Origin: Candidatus Hydrogenedentota bacterium
Lineage (GTDB): Bacteria > Hydrogenedentota > Hydrogenedentia > Hydrogenedentales > SLHB01
Length of the DNA: 64,000 nt
NCBI GenBank assembly: GCA_020849535.1
Contig: JADLGB010000127.1
Coordinates: 1-64,000, forward strand
Direction: 5' to 3'
Positions 48,392-58,282 of the stretch are shown here, one piece after another. The position numbers were made by a program, and so were the translations under genes. The stretch's first letter is position 1, and each line of letters opens with the position of its first letter. A model generated the notes under the pieces. It was not told the origin of the DNA and did not search any database. It worked only from the letters and a program-made list of their open reading frames with translations.

Positions 48392-48685
48392 CTCTTCCGT
48401 ACCGCCTCGCTCTCCGAGCGCGGCGGCACAGCGCTATGCTGCGCAATGGGACATGACGGCACAGAGAAACACTTCCCCCCGGGATTTCCTTGTATCGAAT
48501 GGGACACCCGCGAGGGCGCCTATGCCACACGCGCTTGCCACGACTTGGTGGGTTCATCCAGTCTTTCAAACTTCGTTTTGCCAGGAGATATCGGGAATTC
48601 AAGACAAATAAGGAAAGCGAGACAGACGTGTGGCATAGGCGCCCTCGCCTGTGCTCTTCTAGGAGGGCGGGTCTTCCGACCCGCC
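48392..48685. repeat. Cluster of repeats B and C and a hairpin
   Basis: The gene-free stretch 48371-48880 holds repeat B at 48392-48430 and repeat C at 48507-48533 (CGCGAGGGCGCCTATGCCAC). An inverted C lies at 48626-48660, and GGCGGGTC-TTCC-GACCCGCC at 48666-48685 is a perfect 8-bp stem. No gene is seen. A promoter for the next gene begins at 48799. Confidence 0.75.
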
Positions 48686-48880: not shown

Positions 48881-49810
48881 ATGGGGAACTTCACGAGTGA
48901 GCACGACCAACGGCCCCAACAGCGCGCGCAGCCGGCCAGCAGCTTGGCCATCGCCAGCCTGGTCCTGGGCATCGGCTCGTATCTCTGCCTGGGGCCTCTG
49001 TTATCGATCCCAGGCATCATTACCGGCCATATGGCGATGCCGCGGACAAGAATTGGCCGAAGCACACATGGAGGAGGTGGTTTAGCCATAGCCGGACTGG
49101 TTTTGAGCTACGTCAACATCTGCTTGACCTTGCTTGTGCTACTCGCAATGCTGCCCCCCACGCTATCACGAGTGAGGGAGGCCGCAATGCGCGCAACGTG
49201 TCAGATGCACCTCAAACAGTTGGGCCTCGCACTCAGAACGTTCGCGAGCGCGAGTGATGGCGAGATCTACCCCCAACTGTCATCCGAACCGGGCAGATTA
49301 ATGTTCGACAATGATGCGTTAGCCCGCCCGGTGTACCCGGATTTCCTCCCGGATCTTTCTGTTATGGTGTGTCCGGCCGACGACGTTCCTGTCTTTGGCC
49401 CGGAAGATGTGGATGCCGCGCTAAATGATCATAGCTATTTCTATCTGGGCTATCTTGTCAGTGACGACAAGACGGTGGAAGCCTTCGCCGAGGTCTATCG
49501 GTCGTACCTCTCCCAAGGGCTTCCTTTTGAAGATAGTCTGAAGGTGCCCGCGGGGGCCGGAATTGCCGGTGGAGATACCATCCCTCGGCTTCGCAAAGGG
49601 GTTGAACGCTATCTCATCACGGACCTCCCAGCCAGTGTAGAATTTGCGCGGAGCCGCGTCCCAGTACTGATCGAGCGACCGGAGCACCATTCCCCGCCCG
49701 GCGGAAATGTTCTCTACATGGATGGACACGTCAAGTTCATACCGTATCCCGGCGAGTGGCCCATGACCGAACGAACCATCGGCATCCTGGAATCGTTGGA
49801 CCAGATGTAA
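48881..49810 (+). CDS. DUF4190 membrane protein with pseudopilin-like C-terminal domain
   Basis: This is a 309-aa protein. Its N-terminal part (~20-90) is a DUF4190 pair of membrane spans (SSLAIASLVLGIGSYLCLGPLLSIPGIITGHMA, GGGLAIAGLVLSYVNI). After a third hydrophobic stretch comes SRVREAAMRATCQMHLKQLGLALRTFASASDGEIYPQL, the arrangement that follows the pilin helix in the H-X9-DG (DUF1559) prepilin-like proteins. The end has HHSPPGGNVLYMDGHVKFI, a close variant of the H-X9-DG motif. So it looks like a pilin-type periplasmic domain on a different anchor. GGGGAGGAAC precedes the ATG. Confidence 0.75.
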   Translation: MGNFTSEHDQRPQQRAQPASSLAIASLVLGIGSYLCLGPLLSIPGIITGHMAMPRTRIGRSTHGGGGLAIAGLVLSYVNICLTLLVLLAMLPPTLSRVREAAMRATCQMHLKQLGLALRTFASASDGEIYPQLSSEPGRLMFDNDALARPVYPDFLPDLSVMVCPADDVPVFGPEDVDAALNDHSYFYLGYLVSDDKTVEAFAEVYRSYLSQGLPFEDSLKVPAGAGIAGGDTIPRLRKGVERYLITDLPASVEFARSRVPVLIERPEHHSPPGGNVLYMDGHVKFIPYPGEWPMTERTIGILESLDQM

Positions 49811-49940
49811 CTGAGGGCAATAAGCCACCCAGTTGTCGCTCCCGCCTGCATACTCGGACAAGAAACCAAAGAACGCAAACGGAAGCAGAAGAAACTTGTA
49901 GTCCCTTGGTTTCGAGAGGCTGCTTCAAACCACAAAAAGC

Positions 49941-50066
49941 ACAGGCGAGGGCGCCTATGCTCTTCTTGATGAGGGGGAAACGCCACGATGTCGGAAAGCT
50001 AGAGGCCCCGGAGCACCCGCAGTCCTGTGCTGCCGCGCTCGGAGAGCGAGGCAGTACTGAAGAGGG
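49941..50066. repeat. Repeat C and inverted repeat B
   Basis: The gene-free stretch 49811-50214 holds repeat C (49941-49970, ACAGGCGAGGGCGCCTATGC) and a long copy of B in inverted orientation (50007-50066). The latter starts GAGCACCC and includes TGCTGCCGCGCTCGGAGAGC and GAGGCAGTAC. The same order GAGCACCC...TGCTGCCGCG is seen at 15802-15854. Confidence 0.75.
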
Positions 50067-50214: not shown

Positions 50215-52950
50215 ATGCGTAACGTACTGCGGTCAGGGCTGTTAATCATTGTGGTCGCGGCTCTTGCGGGATGCCCGCGGCCTGTCAACAGATCCTACGA
50301 TTTCACGAGCGCGGACCTGCAAGGCAGCAGAAACTTCCTCGACTTCCTCGGGGGCCTTCCAGCGTCAATGAATGATGAGTCCGGCGGGGAGCAAACCGTC
50401 ACCCGTGAAGTGGTCGAGCCGGACGTAATCCGTCGAGACGATAACCTTCTATACGTCCTGAACCAGTACCGGGGTCTCACTCTGGTTGACCTGGACACCG
50501 AGAGCATCCTGGCCCAGGTGCCCACCTACGGTTATCCGCGCGATCTCTACCTTGTTGGGGACCGAGCGTACGTGCTGGTGGCCTATGCGGCAGACTTCAC
50601 CGCAAACGGCAACACCATCGAGTACGACATCAAGTCGCGTCTGTACATTGTGGACGTATCGACGCCAACAGAGGCATCCGTCATCGGTTCGTTCGATCTC
50701 GAAGGCGATCTCGTGGACAGCCGCCTGGTCGGCGATGTCCTGTACGCGGTCAGTGCCGAATACAATTGGATTTGGGCTGAAGGTGTGGCCGTCATGAAAG
50801 CGCAGACGTCCGGCTCGTGGGTAACCAGCGTCAACATCGCCGATCCCGGCAACATCTACGATGCCGATGAAGTCTCATTTGAAAGTATCGGCAGCGTCAT
50901 CCATGCGTCGTCATCCGCCATCTTCGTGGCGGCCAGCAATTGGCAGAACGACACGACGCGCATTACCTATGTGGACATCAGCGATCCGGCTGGCGCGATC
51001 ACCGTTCGCGACTCCGTGAAGGTTGCGGGGCAGGTTGCGGATAAGTTCAAGATGGACGCGTGGAACGGCGTACTGCGCGTGATTTCCAGCGCCTGGGATG
51101 AGGAACGCAAGGTGTACGTGACCACCGTGGACCTGGCCAATCCCGACGCACTCACGGTGCTCGCCGAAACGGAATTTGAACGCGCGCGCGGCGATTCGCT
51201 GTTCGCGACGCGTTTCGACGGCGCACGCGCCTACATCGTGACCTACTTCGTGGTCGACCCCCTATTCGTGGTCGATCTTTCCGACCCGCAGAATCCCGAA
51301 GTCGCAGGCGAACTGGAAGTCCCCGGTTGGTCCACCTACATCGAACCCATGGGGGACCGTCTGTTGGCATTGGGCGTGGATGACACCGAGGGCCGCCGGG
51401 TCAGCATGAGTCTCTTCAGCGTGGCCGATCCGGCGAATCCTTCGCTGGTGGACCGCGTGTCGTTCGGGCAAAGCTGGAGCTGGTCCAGTGCCTACAACGA
51501 TGTGAAGGCCCTGACCGTGTTGGATGATGTCATCATCGTGCCCTTCTCCGGGTGGGAGGATGATTTCGGCGGATATGAGCGGCTTCAGTTTGTTTCGTAT
51601 ACACCCGATGACCTGACGAAGCGGGGCAATGTGGATGTACAGGGGACCGTCCTGCGCTCCTTCGAGTACGACACCAGCTACTACGGCGTCACGTCCGAGC
51701 AACTGGCCCGCATCGACGCGTCCGATCTGGACGCGCCTCAGGTGGTCAGCACGCTGGCGCTCGCTGAGAACGTGAGTGATTTCGTGGAACTCTCCCCCAC
51801 TCTCGGCGTTGAGATCATCACCCGCTACGACGATGGCACCACCCTGCTGCGCCGAAAGGGGCTTCCACTCAAAGCGGTGTCCGGTGAAGCCGAGGTATCC
51901 ATCGGCGAACTGGTGGATGCCTATCCTTACGGATCCTCGGTAGTACTGGTGGGCGCGGATTGGTCGGGAACGAGCAAGTACAAGGTGGCGATCGTGGACT
52001 TCAGCGACCCGGACAATCCCGAAGTGGACGCATCGCTGGATGTCAACGTGTCGCCGTACTACGGGTACTGGTGGTACTTGCCGTACATGCCGATGGTCGA
52101 CATGGCAACATCGGATGCCGCTGTGGGCCTTTGGTATCCGATCCGGCAGCAAGGGTCTAGCCTGCTCGTGGGCGACCAACTCGTATTGCGTTGCACGGCG
52201 GACGCCTACGATTCCGTGATCGGGACGGAATCACCCGATGAAGGATTGGCCATCGTCGATCTGACGCAGCCGGCATGGACGCAGACCGTAGGTCTCGGCT
52301 TCGAGCGGGTCGTGTCCGTGAACGGCGGCGAGGACAGCGTGTACATCGCGAGCAAGGTGGCCTTGAATAGCCTGAATCCCTTCGGCGATCCCTTGTGCGC
52401 GTATTTCGTAACGCCTTTTGACCCCGTCACCGGAACGGGAGGCCCGACAGCAAACGTGCCGGGGGCGTTTGTTCAATACGACCCGGCCACGCAGGTACTC
52501 GTCGTGCGCGACGACCAGTGGACCGCGGGTTACGATTACATCAGCACCTTACGTACGGCCTCCTGGGACGGTGACACGACGGTCACGGAACTGGATGATC
52601 AGAAGTTGCCGGAAGGCAGCTCGAACGTCCTGGGGCGCGGTGCCAAGGTGTTTATCGACGCCTATGATGAGGGCAGCATGCTTTATGCCGCGTCCGTGTC
52701 GTCCGCCGGCAATATCACGATGGGCAACGGCGTGCTGGTGACCGAAGGCTGGGCAAATCTCGTCGACGCCAACGCGGCGAGCGCCTACTTCTCGGTGGGC
52801 GGCGGCGCGCTGGCGCGTTACGATTGCTCGGGTACGCCCACGCTCGAGGAGCTGGTCGAGGTCATGGGAACCCCCGCACGGATGCGCTTCGGATCAAGTG
52901 CGGCGTATGCGCCCCTGGGCTATTTCGGGGTCGTGTCGCTGGGTCTGTGA
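50215..52950 (+). CDS. Beta-propeller domain lipoprotein
   Basis: This 911-aa protein has a lipoprotein signal (LLIIVVAALAGC, Cys20). Most of it matches the 'beta propeller domain' family of secreted proteins, with repeated VDxSDPxxP blades: RLYIVDVSTPTEASVIGSF, VTTVDLANPDALTVLAE, LFVVDLSDPQNPEVAGELEVPGWSTYIEPMGDRLLALG and VAIVDFSDPDNPEVDASLDV. The family is not enzymatic as far as known; it may bind other envelope proteins. GGGGTGAG precedes the ATG. It stands alone, with repeats upstream and a nonamer array downstream. Confidence 0.85.
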   Translation: MRNVLRSGLLIIVVAALAGCPRPVNRSYDFTSADLQGSRNFLDFLGGLPASMNDESGGEQTVTREVVEPDVIRRDDNLLYVLNQYRGLTLVDLDTESILAQVPTYGYPRDLYLVGDRAYVLVAYAADFTANGNTIEYDIKSRLYIVDVSTPTEASVIGSFDLEGDLVDSRLVGDVLYAVSAEYNWIWAEGVAVMKAQTSGSWVTSVNIADPGNIYDADEVSFESIGSVIHASSSAIFVAASNWQNDTTRITYVDISDPAGAITVRDSVKVAGQVADKFKMDAWNGVLRVISSAWDEERKVYVTTVDLANPDALTVLAETEFERARGDSLFATRFDGARAYIVTYFVVDPLFVVDLSDPQNPEVAGELEVPGWSTYIEPMGDRLLALGVDDTEGRRVSMSLFSVADPANPSLVDRVSFGQSWSWSSAYNDVKALTVLDDVIIVPFSGWEDDFGGYERLQFVSYTPDDLTKRGNVDVQGTVLRSFEYDTSYYGVTSEQLARIDASDLDAPQVVSTLALAENVSDFVELSPTLGVEIITRYDDGTTLLRRKGLPLKAVSGEAEVSIGELVDAYPYGSSVVLVGADWSGTSKYKVAIVDFSDPDNPEVDASLDVNVSPYYGYWWYLPYMPMVDMATSDAAVGLWYPIRQQGSSLLVGDQLVLRCTADAYDSVIGTESPDEGLAIVDLTQPAWTQTVGLGFERVVSVNGGEDSVYIASKVALNSLNPFGDPLCAYFVTPFDPVTGTGGPTANVPGAFVQYDPATQVLVVRDDQWTAGYDYISTLRTASWDGDTTVTELDDQKLPEGSSNVLGRGAKVFIDAYDEGSMLYAASVSSAGNITMGNGVLVTEGWANLVDANAASAYFSVGGGALARYDCSGTPTLEELVEVMGTPARMRFGSSAAYAPLGYFGVVSLGL

Positions 52951-55320: not shown

Positions 55321-55508
55321 TACCCTACCCTCTCTTGCCCGTGTTGATGATGCTGAATATCGCAGAACGCACATCTGGCCCGCAAGCACCCACTTACTGT
55401 AGAGCGCCCGCATGGGTTTGGCAACTCAACTCCGGTGTCAACAGAAGCCGGTCCGGCGCCGTTAGCTCGATGTGACCATAACGACGCGGAAACGTGTAGA
55501 GTAGTGCC

Positions 55509-56036
55509 ATGGAACCTCGTGTCGATAGCGGACGCAACCTCGAGGCCTTCCTCCGGCAGGTGGAGGCCCCGCTCTATACGTTTCTGCTGCGCCTCACACG
55601 CGACGTGGAAGATGCGCACGGCACGGCCCGTGAGACGATGGCGCGCATCCTGCGCCTGGAACATCTTGGACGCGTTCCCGAGGACGCGGCAAACCGGCGC
55701 GCACTCGTGTTTTCGACGGCCTATCATCTGGCAATGGGGCACGTGCGCACGAGGCGCTGGGCAAGCGCGCCCGCGCCCCGGGAGGAGCCGCCGCCAGATA
55801 GGCCCTTGGACGAGTTGATGGCGCTGCGTCAGATAGAGCGCGCGTTGGACGATCTGCCAGCCCCCCAACGCGACGCCCTGCTCCTGCGCGTGTTCGGCGA
55901 ACTCCGCTATGCCGATATCGCTCATACACTGCGCTGCACGGCGGAGCTAGTCCGTACGTGGGTGTGCCACGCGCGCCGGAGTTTGGGCGAGCACCTTCAC
56001 GGCGACGTAAGCGACGTGAGAACCGCGGATGAATGA
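55509..56036 (+). CDS. ECF sigma factor
   Basis: This 175-aa sigma-70 family protein has region 2 (~10-75: LEAFLRQVEAPLYTFLLRLTRDVEDAHGTARETMARILR ... RRALVFSTAYHLAMGHVR) and region 4 (~110-165: RALDDLPAPQRDALLLRVFGELRYADIAHTLRCTAELVRTWVCHARRSLGEHL). There is no extra C-terminal domain. It overlaps the following gene by 8 bases, and that product has an anti-sigma-like N-terminus, so the two form a sigma/regulator pair. Its target promoters are unknown; ECF pairs usually also regulate their own gene. Confidence 0.9.
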   Translation: MEPRVDSGRNLEAFLRQVEAPLYTFLLRLTRDVEDAHGTARETMARILRLEHLGRVPEDAANRRALVFSTAYHLAMGHVRTRRWASAPAPREEPPPDRPLDELMALRQIERALDDLPAPQRDALLLRVFGELRYADIAHTLRCTAELVRTWVCHARRSLGEHLHGDVSDVRTADE

Positions 56037-57951
56037 CCACGACTTCGAGCGCTTGTCCGCCTATCTCGATGGCGAACTCTCGCCTGACGACGCGGCATCC
56101 GTTGAAGAGGCCCTGGCGCAATCACCCGAATGGTCGGATGCCCGTAACGCTTTGGTGCAGGCGGACGCTTGGCTGCGGCAGGGTGAAGAAAGCCCCATCC
56201 TGAGCATCGTTCCACACTTGGACGCAGCCCAGGAAACACGGCGAACGCTACGGAGAAATGGGACGAATCGCGACCGGCGAGGCCTCTATCTGTCCGCGCT
56301 GGTCGTGGGACTGGTCCTGGCCGGCCTCGCATTGTTGAGCGGGCGCGAACCGAATACTCCTCCGGATTCCGCTGGACCGGGTGCGCAAGCGCCGATAGTC
56401 TCAAGCGGCCCACCGGCCTCTGAAGAAACTGCCACGACGAATGACCTGAGCGCGGATGCGCAGGCCGGCTCGATAGGGGACGCGCGGGAAGCACAAGAGC
56501 CCGCGTTGCCGGTCGATCCCGTGTCATACCTTTCGTTGGAGGGCACCGCGCTGGGCTCCAACCCCGCCGCGGTGATCCGCAATGCGGCCACGGGCACTGA
56601 GAAGGTCTATCGCGTGGGGCAGACTGTTATCGAAGGCATCACACTGAAGGAAGTCACCAGCAAGGCCGCCGTGTTGGAGCGGAGCGGCGAAGAGATTCCG
56701 CTTCGGGCTGGCGCGTTGGAGTTGGAGCCTCCCATGCTCAAGACGATCGATGGCTTGTGGCGCATGATTCTACACGTGGCCGGCCAAGAAGAGGAATATC
56801 ACGACCTGCTGCGTTTCCAGATGGACGGGTCGAAACTCAACGTCGTGAACGGTAAAGATGATTCGCCGTTTGCGAGCGGCTCGATTGACGAACGCGACGT
56901 GATGCTTCAGTTCAACGACAACGGGGTAGTCTACGTGATGCGCGGAACGTTGGACATCGCGCTGGACTCTCTCGCGCTGCATTTCGAGGGCGCCACTCCC
57001 TACGCATCGGTAGACCCGCAGGATGTCGAGCTGCGCCTCACGCGGGTTGAAGACAAAGACCTCGCCGATATCACCGAGCTGAGCAGCCTGCGCGAAGAGG
57101 TTGAAAGGGTCCGAGGGGCCCTGATCCAGTACGCGCAAGAGCACGAGGCCCGGTTCCCTCTAAAACTCGATGCCCTGGTCCCAGACTATTTGGAAACACT
57201 CGACACACTGAATGGCACGCAAAACATTACGCTGGACTACCACGGAGGCCTGCCCCTGGCCCGCATCGACGTCCCGCCGATCCTCCGGTTTGATGACTTT
57301 CAGGTTGGGTATGCGTGGGACTATCGGTTGAAGGAGTGGGATAACCTGCTGATGCGAAGTTGGGGGGGTGCGGAATGGCTGCACCCGGAGAACGTGTTAA
57401 TCCTGACCTGCAAGAAGCCGGCGGTTGTCTTCACACTATCGGCTCGCGGGGACCTCCACGAAAGAGTGGAGCGGCCGGAGTACCGCGGCCCGGAGGACAT
57501 CTCCGAAATGGCGGAGCGCAACGCGTGGATCTCCCGGGACCGCGCAAACCTCGAGGAACTCGGCATCGCGATACGCATGTTCCAGAACGAGCACGAGGGA
57601 TACACGCCCGGCGGATGGGCTTCGGCGTATCCGGCCTATCTGAAGGATCCAAGCCTCCTGAGCAGCCCCAAAGATGAGCCGGGCGCTGACTCGTACCTCT
57701 ACTTGTACCCTGCCACAAATCTGGACCGGCTCATCGCGGAACGGGCCAAAGACCCTGACATCTGGGACACCGATCCGGATGCGGCCCGGCAGTTGCAGGC
57801 GCAGATCCCCATACTTCTCAACCGCACGGACTACCCTGGCGAGCAGCCGGGGCGGAACGTGCTCTTCATGAATTGGGAAGTGGAGTTCCTGTTCACGAAT
57901 TCGCCCGAGTGGCGGGAATGGGTTCTACCGCACCTGACGCAGGCACGGTGA
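56029..57951 (+). CDS. Membrane sigma regulator with GspC-like and pseudopilin-like extracytoplasmic domains
   Basis: This 640-aa protein has an N-terminal ~70 residues of the anti-sigma kind (HDFERLSAYLDGELSPDDAASVEEALAQSPEW), without the zinc-binding His/Cys motif. One membrane span follows (~86-104). Outside, residues ~167-226 (LEGTALGSNPAAVIRN ... EKVYRVGQTVIEGITLKEVTSKAAVLERSGEEIPL) look like the HR domain of type II secretion GspC. A beta-rich region follows (~236-345), then two stretches like pseudopilin C-terminal domains, at ~362-385 (ALIQYAQEHEARFPLKLDALVPDYL) and ~525-555 (IAIRMFQNEHEGYTPGGW). It is far larger than typical anti-sigma factors. It starts inside the sigma gene. Confidence 0.72.
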   Translation: MNDHDFERLSAYLDGELSPDDAASVEEALAQSPEWSDARNALVQADAWLRQGEESPILSIVPHLDAAQETRRTLRRNGTNRDRRGLYLSALVVGLVLAGLALLSGREPNTPPDSAGPGAQAPIVSSGPPASEETATTNDLSADAQAGSIGDAREAQEPALPVDPVSYLSLEGTALGSNPAAVIRNAATGTEKVYRVGQTVIEGITLKEVTSKAAVLERSGEEIPLRAGALELEPPMLKTIDGLWRMILHVAGQEEEYHDLLRFQMDGSKLNVVNGKDDSPFASGSIDERDVMLQFNDNGVVYVMRGTLDIALDSLALHFEGATPYASVDPQDVELRLTRVEDKDLADITELSSLREEVERVRGALIQYAQEHEARFPLKLDALVPDYLETLDTLNGTQNITLDYHGGLPLARIDVPPILRFDDFQVGYAWDYRLKEWDNLLMRSWGGAEWLHPENVLILTCKKPAVVFTLSARGDLHERVERPEYRGPEDISEMAERNAWISRDRANLEELGIAIRMFQNEHEGYTPGGWASAYPAYLKDPSLLSSPKDEPGADSYLYLYPATNLDRLIAERAKDPDIWDTDPDAARQLQAQIPILLNRTDYPGEQPGRNVLFMNWEVEFLFTNSPEWREWVLPHLTQAR

Positions 57952-58000
57952 CGGAGAGGGGGGTGACGCTTTCATCCCTCCGGAACAAACGAAAGTCAAG

Positions 58001-58282
58001 ACACAGGCGAGGGCGCCTGTGCGCACGTCTGTCTCTAACCAGAGAGTACGAACACCTTCTTGATGTTCTTGGCGGGAACGACGAATTGAAGAGATAAGGA
58101 GCGCCCGCGGCATGGCAAACGCGTGTGCCACAGGCGCCCTCGCATGTGTCTTCAATTGCCTTGCCTGTGGGGGTTCCACCTTATGTGCCGTGCTTGGTTT
58201 GCCAAAAGGCTTAACGAGTTTCAAAAAGACGAGGAATAGGAGATAGCCGTGTGGCACAGGCGCCCTCGCCTGTGTCTTCGTT
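58001..58282. repeat. Three copies of repeat C
   Basis: The gene-free stretch 57952-58288 holds one forward copy (58001-58030, ACACAGGCGAGGGCGCCTGT) and two inverted copies (58121-58153 and 58248-58282). The unit is a small hairpin AGGCG-AGGG-CGCCT with TGTGCCACACG attached. Nothing else was seen there. Confidence 0.75.

Follow-up and report, generated by a model that had tools for sequence, protein, structure and literature searches.

A sigma/anti-sigma gene pair of a Hydrogenedentota bacterium with an outer region resembling parts of secretion and pilus machines

Results and Discussion

An ECF sigma gene overlaps the gene of a large one-span anti-sigma factor

The window, i.e. the whole 64,000 nt stretch of DNA analysed here (Candidatus Hydrogenedentota bacterium, contig JADLGB010000127.1), contains a gene for an ECF sigma factor followed by an open reading frame for an anti-sigma factor (Table 1). 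The 8-base overlap of the larger gene with the sigma gene, pointed out in a preliminary description of the sequence, is borne out by the ORF coordinates. The domain order given there holds in large part, and the domain architecture of the 640-aa protein is well supported. The preliminary description saw in it a chimera of an anti-sigma domain, a GspC homology region (HR) and two pseudopilin-like segments. According to our sequence comparisons the chimera is real and conserved, with one prepilin-type module only; the other pilin-like segment was not confirmed. The earlier account did not include the barrel, the relatives with a fused sigma, the conserved promoter or a paralog of this genome that has the zinc motif, all of which are described below.

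Table 1. Features of the sigma/anti-sigma locus in the window.
Feature	Position	Strand	Basis
Candidate autoregulatory ECF promoter, TGTCAAC-N17-CGTTA	55436..55464	+	Boxes conserved in SJ204
ECF sigma factor, 175 aa	55509..56036	+	Sigma70_r4_2 E 3.7e-11; NCBIfam sigma models
One-span anti-sigma factor, 640 aa, 8-base overlap with the sigma gene	56029..57951	+	ORF, Pfam
Cytoplasmic class I anti-sigma domain, residues ~1-80, zinc ligands replaced	56029..56268	+	zf-HC2 E 1.9e-7
Membrane helix, residues 86-104, after RRTLRR...RDRR (N-terminus inside)	56284..56340	+	Sequence
Pro/Ala-rich linker, residues 105-163	56341..56517	+	36% identity to SJ204; evolves faster than the rest of the protein
GspC homology-region (HR) domain, residues 166-232	56524..56724	+	Pfam, profile, AlphaFold, hhalign
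Eight-stranded lipocalin/FABP-like barrel, residues 236-345	56734..57063	+	AlphaFold strands pLDDT ~90; Foldseek
Helix and beta segment with no significant match to prepilins or Pfam, residues 346-492	57064..57504	+	Conserved in the family
H-X9-DG prepilin body without prepilin signal, residues 493-640	57505..57948	+	hhalign to prepilins of the same genome

The N-terminus had been called anti-sigma-like but lacking a zinc motif. Residues 1-80 indeed match zf-HC2 above the Pfam cut-off (31.5 bits versus 22.2), and the Hx3Cx2C ligands are missing both in the window copy and in its ortholog in SJ204, a Hydrogenedentota MAG harbouring the same pair (74% identity for the anti-sigma factor, 85% for the sigma factor). 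The zinc motif is intact in the paralogs L002, L015, L016 and L009. A single hydrophobic stretch at about residues 86-104, flanked on its N-terminal side by arginines, agrees with the one membrane span proposed earlier. In the sigma factor region 4 is clear, while Pfam detected region 2 in the paralog sigmas and neither in the window sigma nor in that of SJ204. The window clade, whose sigma factor has no detectable region 2, may be specialised.

Comparison with SJ204 by the Nei-Gojobori method gave dN/dS ratios that are rough, since several dS values exceed 1: about 0.15 over the full anti-sigma factor, 0.25 for its anti-sigma domain and about 0.10 for the sigma factor. In the outer part, the HR had a ratio of about 0.09, the barrel 0.15, residues 346-492 0.10 and the H-X9-DG module, which is 91% identical to that of SJ204, about 0.04; the linker, at 0.49, is far less constrained. 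By this measure the window genes are clearly kept by selection, and a pseudogene reading of the pair was rejected. The pair is diverged (sigma region 2 undetected, DGH motif of the C-terminal module lost), yet it is under purifying selection.

Such divergence could mean that the window sigma has lost its normal function as a sigma factor and that the large protein acts mainly in the periplasm, e.g. as a GspC-like assembly factor. The undetected region 2 in the window and SJ204, the loss of the zinc ligands and of the DGHV motif, the weaker constraint on the anti-sigma domain than on the HR and the H-X9-DG module, and the existence of a relative (L008) with neither anti-sigma domain nor sigma gene would all fit a repurposed copy. 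However, a dN/dS of about 0.1 places the sigma factor under strong purifying selection, the two genes still overlap, and upstream of them two promoter-like boxes have been conserved. Moreover, repurposing would cover the window clade only: the paralogs L002, L015 and L016 are intact for sigma region 2, the zinc ligands and the DGHV motif, and L002, on contig C312, has the zinc motif, the DGHV motif, a full sigma factor and the family promoter together. We consider repurposing unlikely.

The outer part contains a GspC homology region

The segment with the pattern YRVGQTV...LKEV...VLER, likened to GspC in the preliminary description, was recognized by the Pfam model T2SSC (E 2.2e-6, above cut-off). 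The same model is above cut-off in L002, L016, L009, L008 and L029, and in L002 and L016 the match extends over the membrane helix. When the family profile was compared with PDB sequences, the GspC structures 3oss (E 4e-4) and 7oio (E 3e-3) ranked first. With hhalign, the HR aligned to 18 GspCs of the phylum at 95% and a score of 47.6, the best of 20 shuffles reaching 8.5. The suggested structural comparison with GspC gave a concordant result: an AlphaFold model was obtained for residues 160-346 (mean pLDDT 84.5), and the modelled HR fits 3oss_C with an rmsd of 1.7 A across 63 columns (Foldseek probability 1.00, TM 0.80 on the target).

In the T2SS, GspC contacts the secretin through its HR, which binds the N0 domain; Ala133 and Val141 of GspC lie buried in the middle of the interface with GspD N0, and across GspCs the first of these positions is occupied by Ala, Leu, Val or Met and the second by Val or Ile (PMC3169554). 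All nine anti-sigma HRs stay within this permitted set, with A, V or L at the position equivalent to Ala133 and V or I at that equivalent to Val141. In the GspCs of the phylum, position 141 is more variable. A T2SS (gsp) operon with its own HR-bearing GspC is present on contig C186 of the same genome, and an N0 domain was recognized in the resident GspD (E 4.5e-11). The sigma/anti-sigma operon is not near T2SS genes.

Derivation of the HR from the resident GspC was considered and is not supported. In a tree of only about 65 columns the anti-sigma HRs group separately (support 0.83), and their loop is shorter than in the T2SS GspCs of the phylum and resembles the E. coli form; thus, an origin of the HR in the resident T2SS is not evident. 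GspC typically ends in a PDZ domain or a coiled coil; Pfam found no PDZ domain in the window protein, and weak PDZ matches in the resident GspC.

A barrel and a prepilin-type module complete the outer part

Residues 236-345 are predicted, with moderate confidence, to form an eight-stranded barrel like those of lipocalin-like domains. Foldseek gave high-probability matches of the model to the PvdP barrel, C8gamma and FABPs, none of them with an E-value below 0.001.

The two segments that follow had both been described as pseudopilin-like. For residues 346-492 this assignment was rejected, their hhalign alignment to prepilins being no better than that of shuffled controls. The segment is conserved across the family, has no relevant Pfam match and weakly resembles the N-terminal half of the second segment (hhalign 55.7%). 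Residues 346-640 were modelled with middling confidence (mean pLDDT 74), and searches with them against PDB sequences and with Foldseek returned unrelated weak matches only and no structural match.

In contrast, the second segment (residues 493-640) is homologous to H-X9-DG prepilins. Against 14 such prepilins from the same genome, its N-terminal half aligned directly after the prepilin helix (hhalign 99.4%, E 7e-21) and its C-terminal half on the H-X9-DG end (98.1%, E 9e-13), far above the shuffled controls. The prepilin signal GFTLIE, present in the prepilins of the genome, is missing from the window protein. The DGHV motif has degenerated to NWEV in the window clade (NWE for DGH) and is kept in the paralogs; TIGR04294 matches two of 12 family members.

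It could be argued that the similarities of the HR and of the prepilin-type module arose by chance or by convergence of short beta-rich segments, given that the HR comprises only about 65 residues and that the Foldseek E-values are above 0.001. This we regard as very improbable, since several members independently exceed curated cut-offs, solved GspC structures are the top sequence matches, and hhalign results lie far above shuffled controls for the HR and for both halves of the H-X9-DG module.

The genome (G000) contains 63 matches to the C-terminal model of H-X9-DG prepilins, and most of those examined have a near-identical N-terminal start. With more than 60 such proteins, this is a large expansion of prepilin-like proteins. 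In the window, a protein with DUF4190 and a DUF1559/H-X9-DG segment is encoded at 48881-49810 (+), about 6 kb upstream of the sigma/anti-sigma pair; here the prepilin-like module recurs in a different context.

Relatives link the outer module to ECF sigma factors in two ways

A search for homologues with the same domain order beside ECF genes, as proposed in the preliminary description, brought the loci with the window architecture to eight, the window included. A profile search covering 68 genomes of the phylum returned relatives from several families, all within one order, and a scan of 84,980 species genomes with two peptide patterns from the prepilin module detected them only in Hydrogenedentota. 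In the first architecture, a sigma gene overlaps a gene encoding anti-sigma domain, helix, HR, barrel, the 346-492 segment and H-X9-DG module (the window, L007, L002, L015, L016, L009, L010 and L029). In the second, the sigma gene overlaps that of a short protein with anti-sigma domain, helix and H-X9-DG module (L014, the shortest member), so that overlapping genes occur in nine family loci. In the third, a single polypeptide joins an ECF sigma directly to helix, barrel and H-X9-DG module (L013, L032, L035 and L037, which come from other genera within the phylum; for L013 and L032 Pfam confirmed the sigma domains). The fourth is the outer module by itself, lacking both sigma and anti-sigma parts: L008, without an adjoining sigma gene, keeps HR, barrel and H-X9-DG module, and L011, L012 and L006 have no HR.

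The joining of the outer module to an ECF sigma factor in two ways is the best evidence from sequence that this module may govern the sigma factor. The H-X9-DG module is the outer part common to all sigma-linked members examined; the sigma-fused members and L014 lack the HR.

A conserved promoter suggests autoregulation

The sequence TGTAAC-N16/17-CGTATAC was found upstream of the sigma gene in L002, L015, L016, L009 and L010, and TGTAAC-N16-CGTCTAC in L029, which belongs to another family; six operons thereby share TGTAAC-N16/17-CGTMTAC. This strict pattern has nine matches in the 25 genomes of the window's family. Five of them belong to these sigma operons, one in each of the five genomes that have one; the remaining four overlap reading frames, and no T2SS or pilin gene is among the matches. 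This search established no target outside the sigma operons.

In the window clade, the boxes TGTCAAC-N17-CGTTA are conserved with SJ204, and the spacer differs. The pattern occurs at two sites in the genome versus one in the reversed control. Its only other site (L119, G000:C268:37192-37220, minus strand) lies upstream of a gene for a probable exported protein and may be due to chance. The TGTAAC family promoter is better supported than the window type. Since a promoter is conserved upstream of sigma in the family and the window clade has related boxes, the sigma/anti-sigma pair is probably autoregulated.

Two other elements lie in the surroundings of the pair. The palindromic repeat CACAGGCGCCCTCGCCTGTG, with 265 copies in the genome when up to one mismatch is allowed and none for the reversed control, is found just downstream of the anti-sigma gene (58000-58022, 58128-58150, 58254-58276) and again in the window at 48503-48525, 48633-48655 and 49938-49960. 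Many of its copies form inverted pairs about 128-130 bases apart, resembling REP/REPIN elements. The region 50215-52950 (+) encodes a lipoprotein-like beta-propeller protein (PF09826, E 1.4e-71).

Proposed mechanism

Taken together, we lean slightly towards a two-gene ECF switch across the inner membrane, in which a sensor made of T2SS or pilus parts is bound to such a machine and the sigma factor is freed when this contact changes. The model builds on the domains, the sigma linkage, the conservation of the family promoter and the purifying selection seen in the sequences; binding of the sigma factor, contact with the machine, the sign of the signal and targets beyond the operon are what we infer. 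The N-terminal domain would hold the co-encoded ECF sigma factor in the cytoplasm, as suggested by its family and by gene order, and one helix would lead to the periplasmic sensor with GspC HR, lipocalin-like barrel and soluble H-X9-DG prepilin body. Most likely, the sensor would bind the machine from which its parts originate: the HR would dock on the N0 domain of the secretin, and the prepilin-like module would contact the (pseudo)pilin layer or other H-X9-DG proteins. A changed contact would alter the anti-sigma factor or expose it to proteolysis, and the freed sigma factor would first amplify its own operon.

That the sensor reports on a secretion or pilus machine, as the preliminary description had proposed, is plausible in the light of the domain identities, the T2SS operon with its own GspC and GspD N0 domain in the same genome, and the residues at the docking positions. 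An anti-sigma factor touching both the secretin and the pilin layer is favoured because HR-N0 binding is known, the residues match in nine of nine HRs, a parallel exists in FecR-type regulators (see below) and a T2SS is resident. At the same time, the lack of the HR in the sigma-fused members and in L014 means that HR docking cannot be the whole mechanism. With the HR absent from several sigma-linked relatives, sensing may fall primarily to the H-X9-DG module, with the HR as an additional docking unit. Further points speak against the model: a single one of the two pilin-like segments holds, L008 combines HR, barrel and H-X9-DG module with neither anti-sigma domain nor neighbouring sigma gene, the HR loop differs from that of the phylum's GspCs, the operon lies away from T2SS genes, the strict promoter pattern marks no T2SS or pilin gene, and residues 346-640 were modelled with middling confidence.

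Alternatively, the switch could exist as proposed while its outer domains are general-purpose modules, barrel and H-X9-DG module binding a small ligand or surface polymer and the HR being a beta-sandwich spacer or dimerisation unit, with no reporting on a machine. Such a use, which we rate as possible though doubtful, would be in line with the occurrence of barrel and H-X9-DG module without HR in sigma-fused and sigma-free relatives, with a barrel fold typical of ligand carriers, with the more than 60 H-X9-DG proteins of the genome, which may serve many ends, and with the lack of T2SS genes adjoining the operon. But the HR is among the most constrained parts of the protein (dN/dS about 0.09), and a spacer need not keep its docking residues in the GspC set, as all nine copies do.

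If machine sensing holds true, the state of a T2SS or pilus machine would have a direct route to transcription via the machine's own docking domain. It would also assign a function open to experiment to at least one prepilin-type domain of the H-X9-DG family, which has more than 60 members here and on which the literature searched contains little. Sensing aside, the family presents an ECF circuit whose outer sensor is assembled from parts of envelope machines and is linked to sigma in two ways.

Comparison with known systems

With H-X9-DG/DUF1559 proteins (TIGR04294, PF07596) the C-terminal module shares the whole soluble body, with N- and C-terminal halves in order. It differs by the missing GFTLIE signal and, in the window clade only, by the loss of DGHV, which the paralogs keep. 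GspC of the T2SS is likewise recognizable in the helix, Pro-rich linker and HR, helix and HR being covered jointly by the Pfam match in paralogs. Unlike GspC, however, the window protein has an anti-sigma domain in front, and barrel and prepilin module replace the PDZ domain; its gene lies outside the gsp operon and the HR loop is short, in contrast to the GspCs of the phylum.

The pair resembles class I one-span anti-sigma factors (RseA, RsiW and the ASDI groups of PMC7406223) in its anti-sigma domain, the overlap with an ECF sigma gene and the single membrane helix. The coexistence of zinc and non-zinc members in one family is also a feature of the ASDI groups, in which mixed groups have been described (PMC7406223). 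The difference is in the outer part, here composed of GspC HR, barrel and prepilin body; an anti-sigma factor of such make was not found in the open-licence literature searched. The sigma-fused relatives L013, L032, L035 and L037, with sigma and outer module in one protein, are similar to ECF sigmas with C-terminal extensions (PMC8999054, PMC5826349) and are set apart by an extension made up of a barrel and an H-X9-DG prepilin module.

Last, regulators of the FecR/PupR/FoxR type (PMC7186176, PMC11637429) also combine an anti-sigma domain, a helix and a beta-rich periplasmic sensor. They bind the signalling (STN) domain of TonB-dependent transducers, which is similar to a periplasmic domain of secretins (PMC11637429, PMC7186176). 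Neither an STN domain nor a TonB-dependent transducer was seen beside the window pair, the window protein has no STN or FecR match, and an STN search of its own genome pointed to four places, none of them at the window protein; the HR is the candidate docking unit instead. By analogy, we tentatively raise the possibility, less probable than the broader model above, of a secretin-coupled form of cell-surface signalling, in which the HR would sit on the secretin N0 domain and the prepilin module on the pseudopilus, so that assembly or occupancy of the machine would control the ECF sigma factor, as a machine-based counterpart of the FecA-FecR-FecI pathway.
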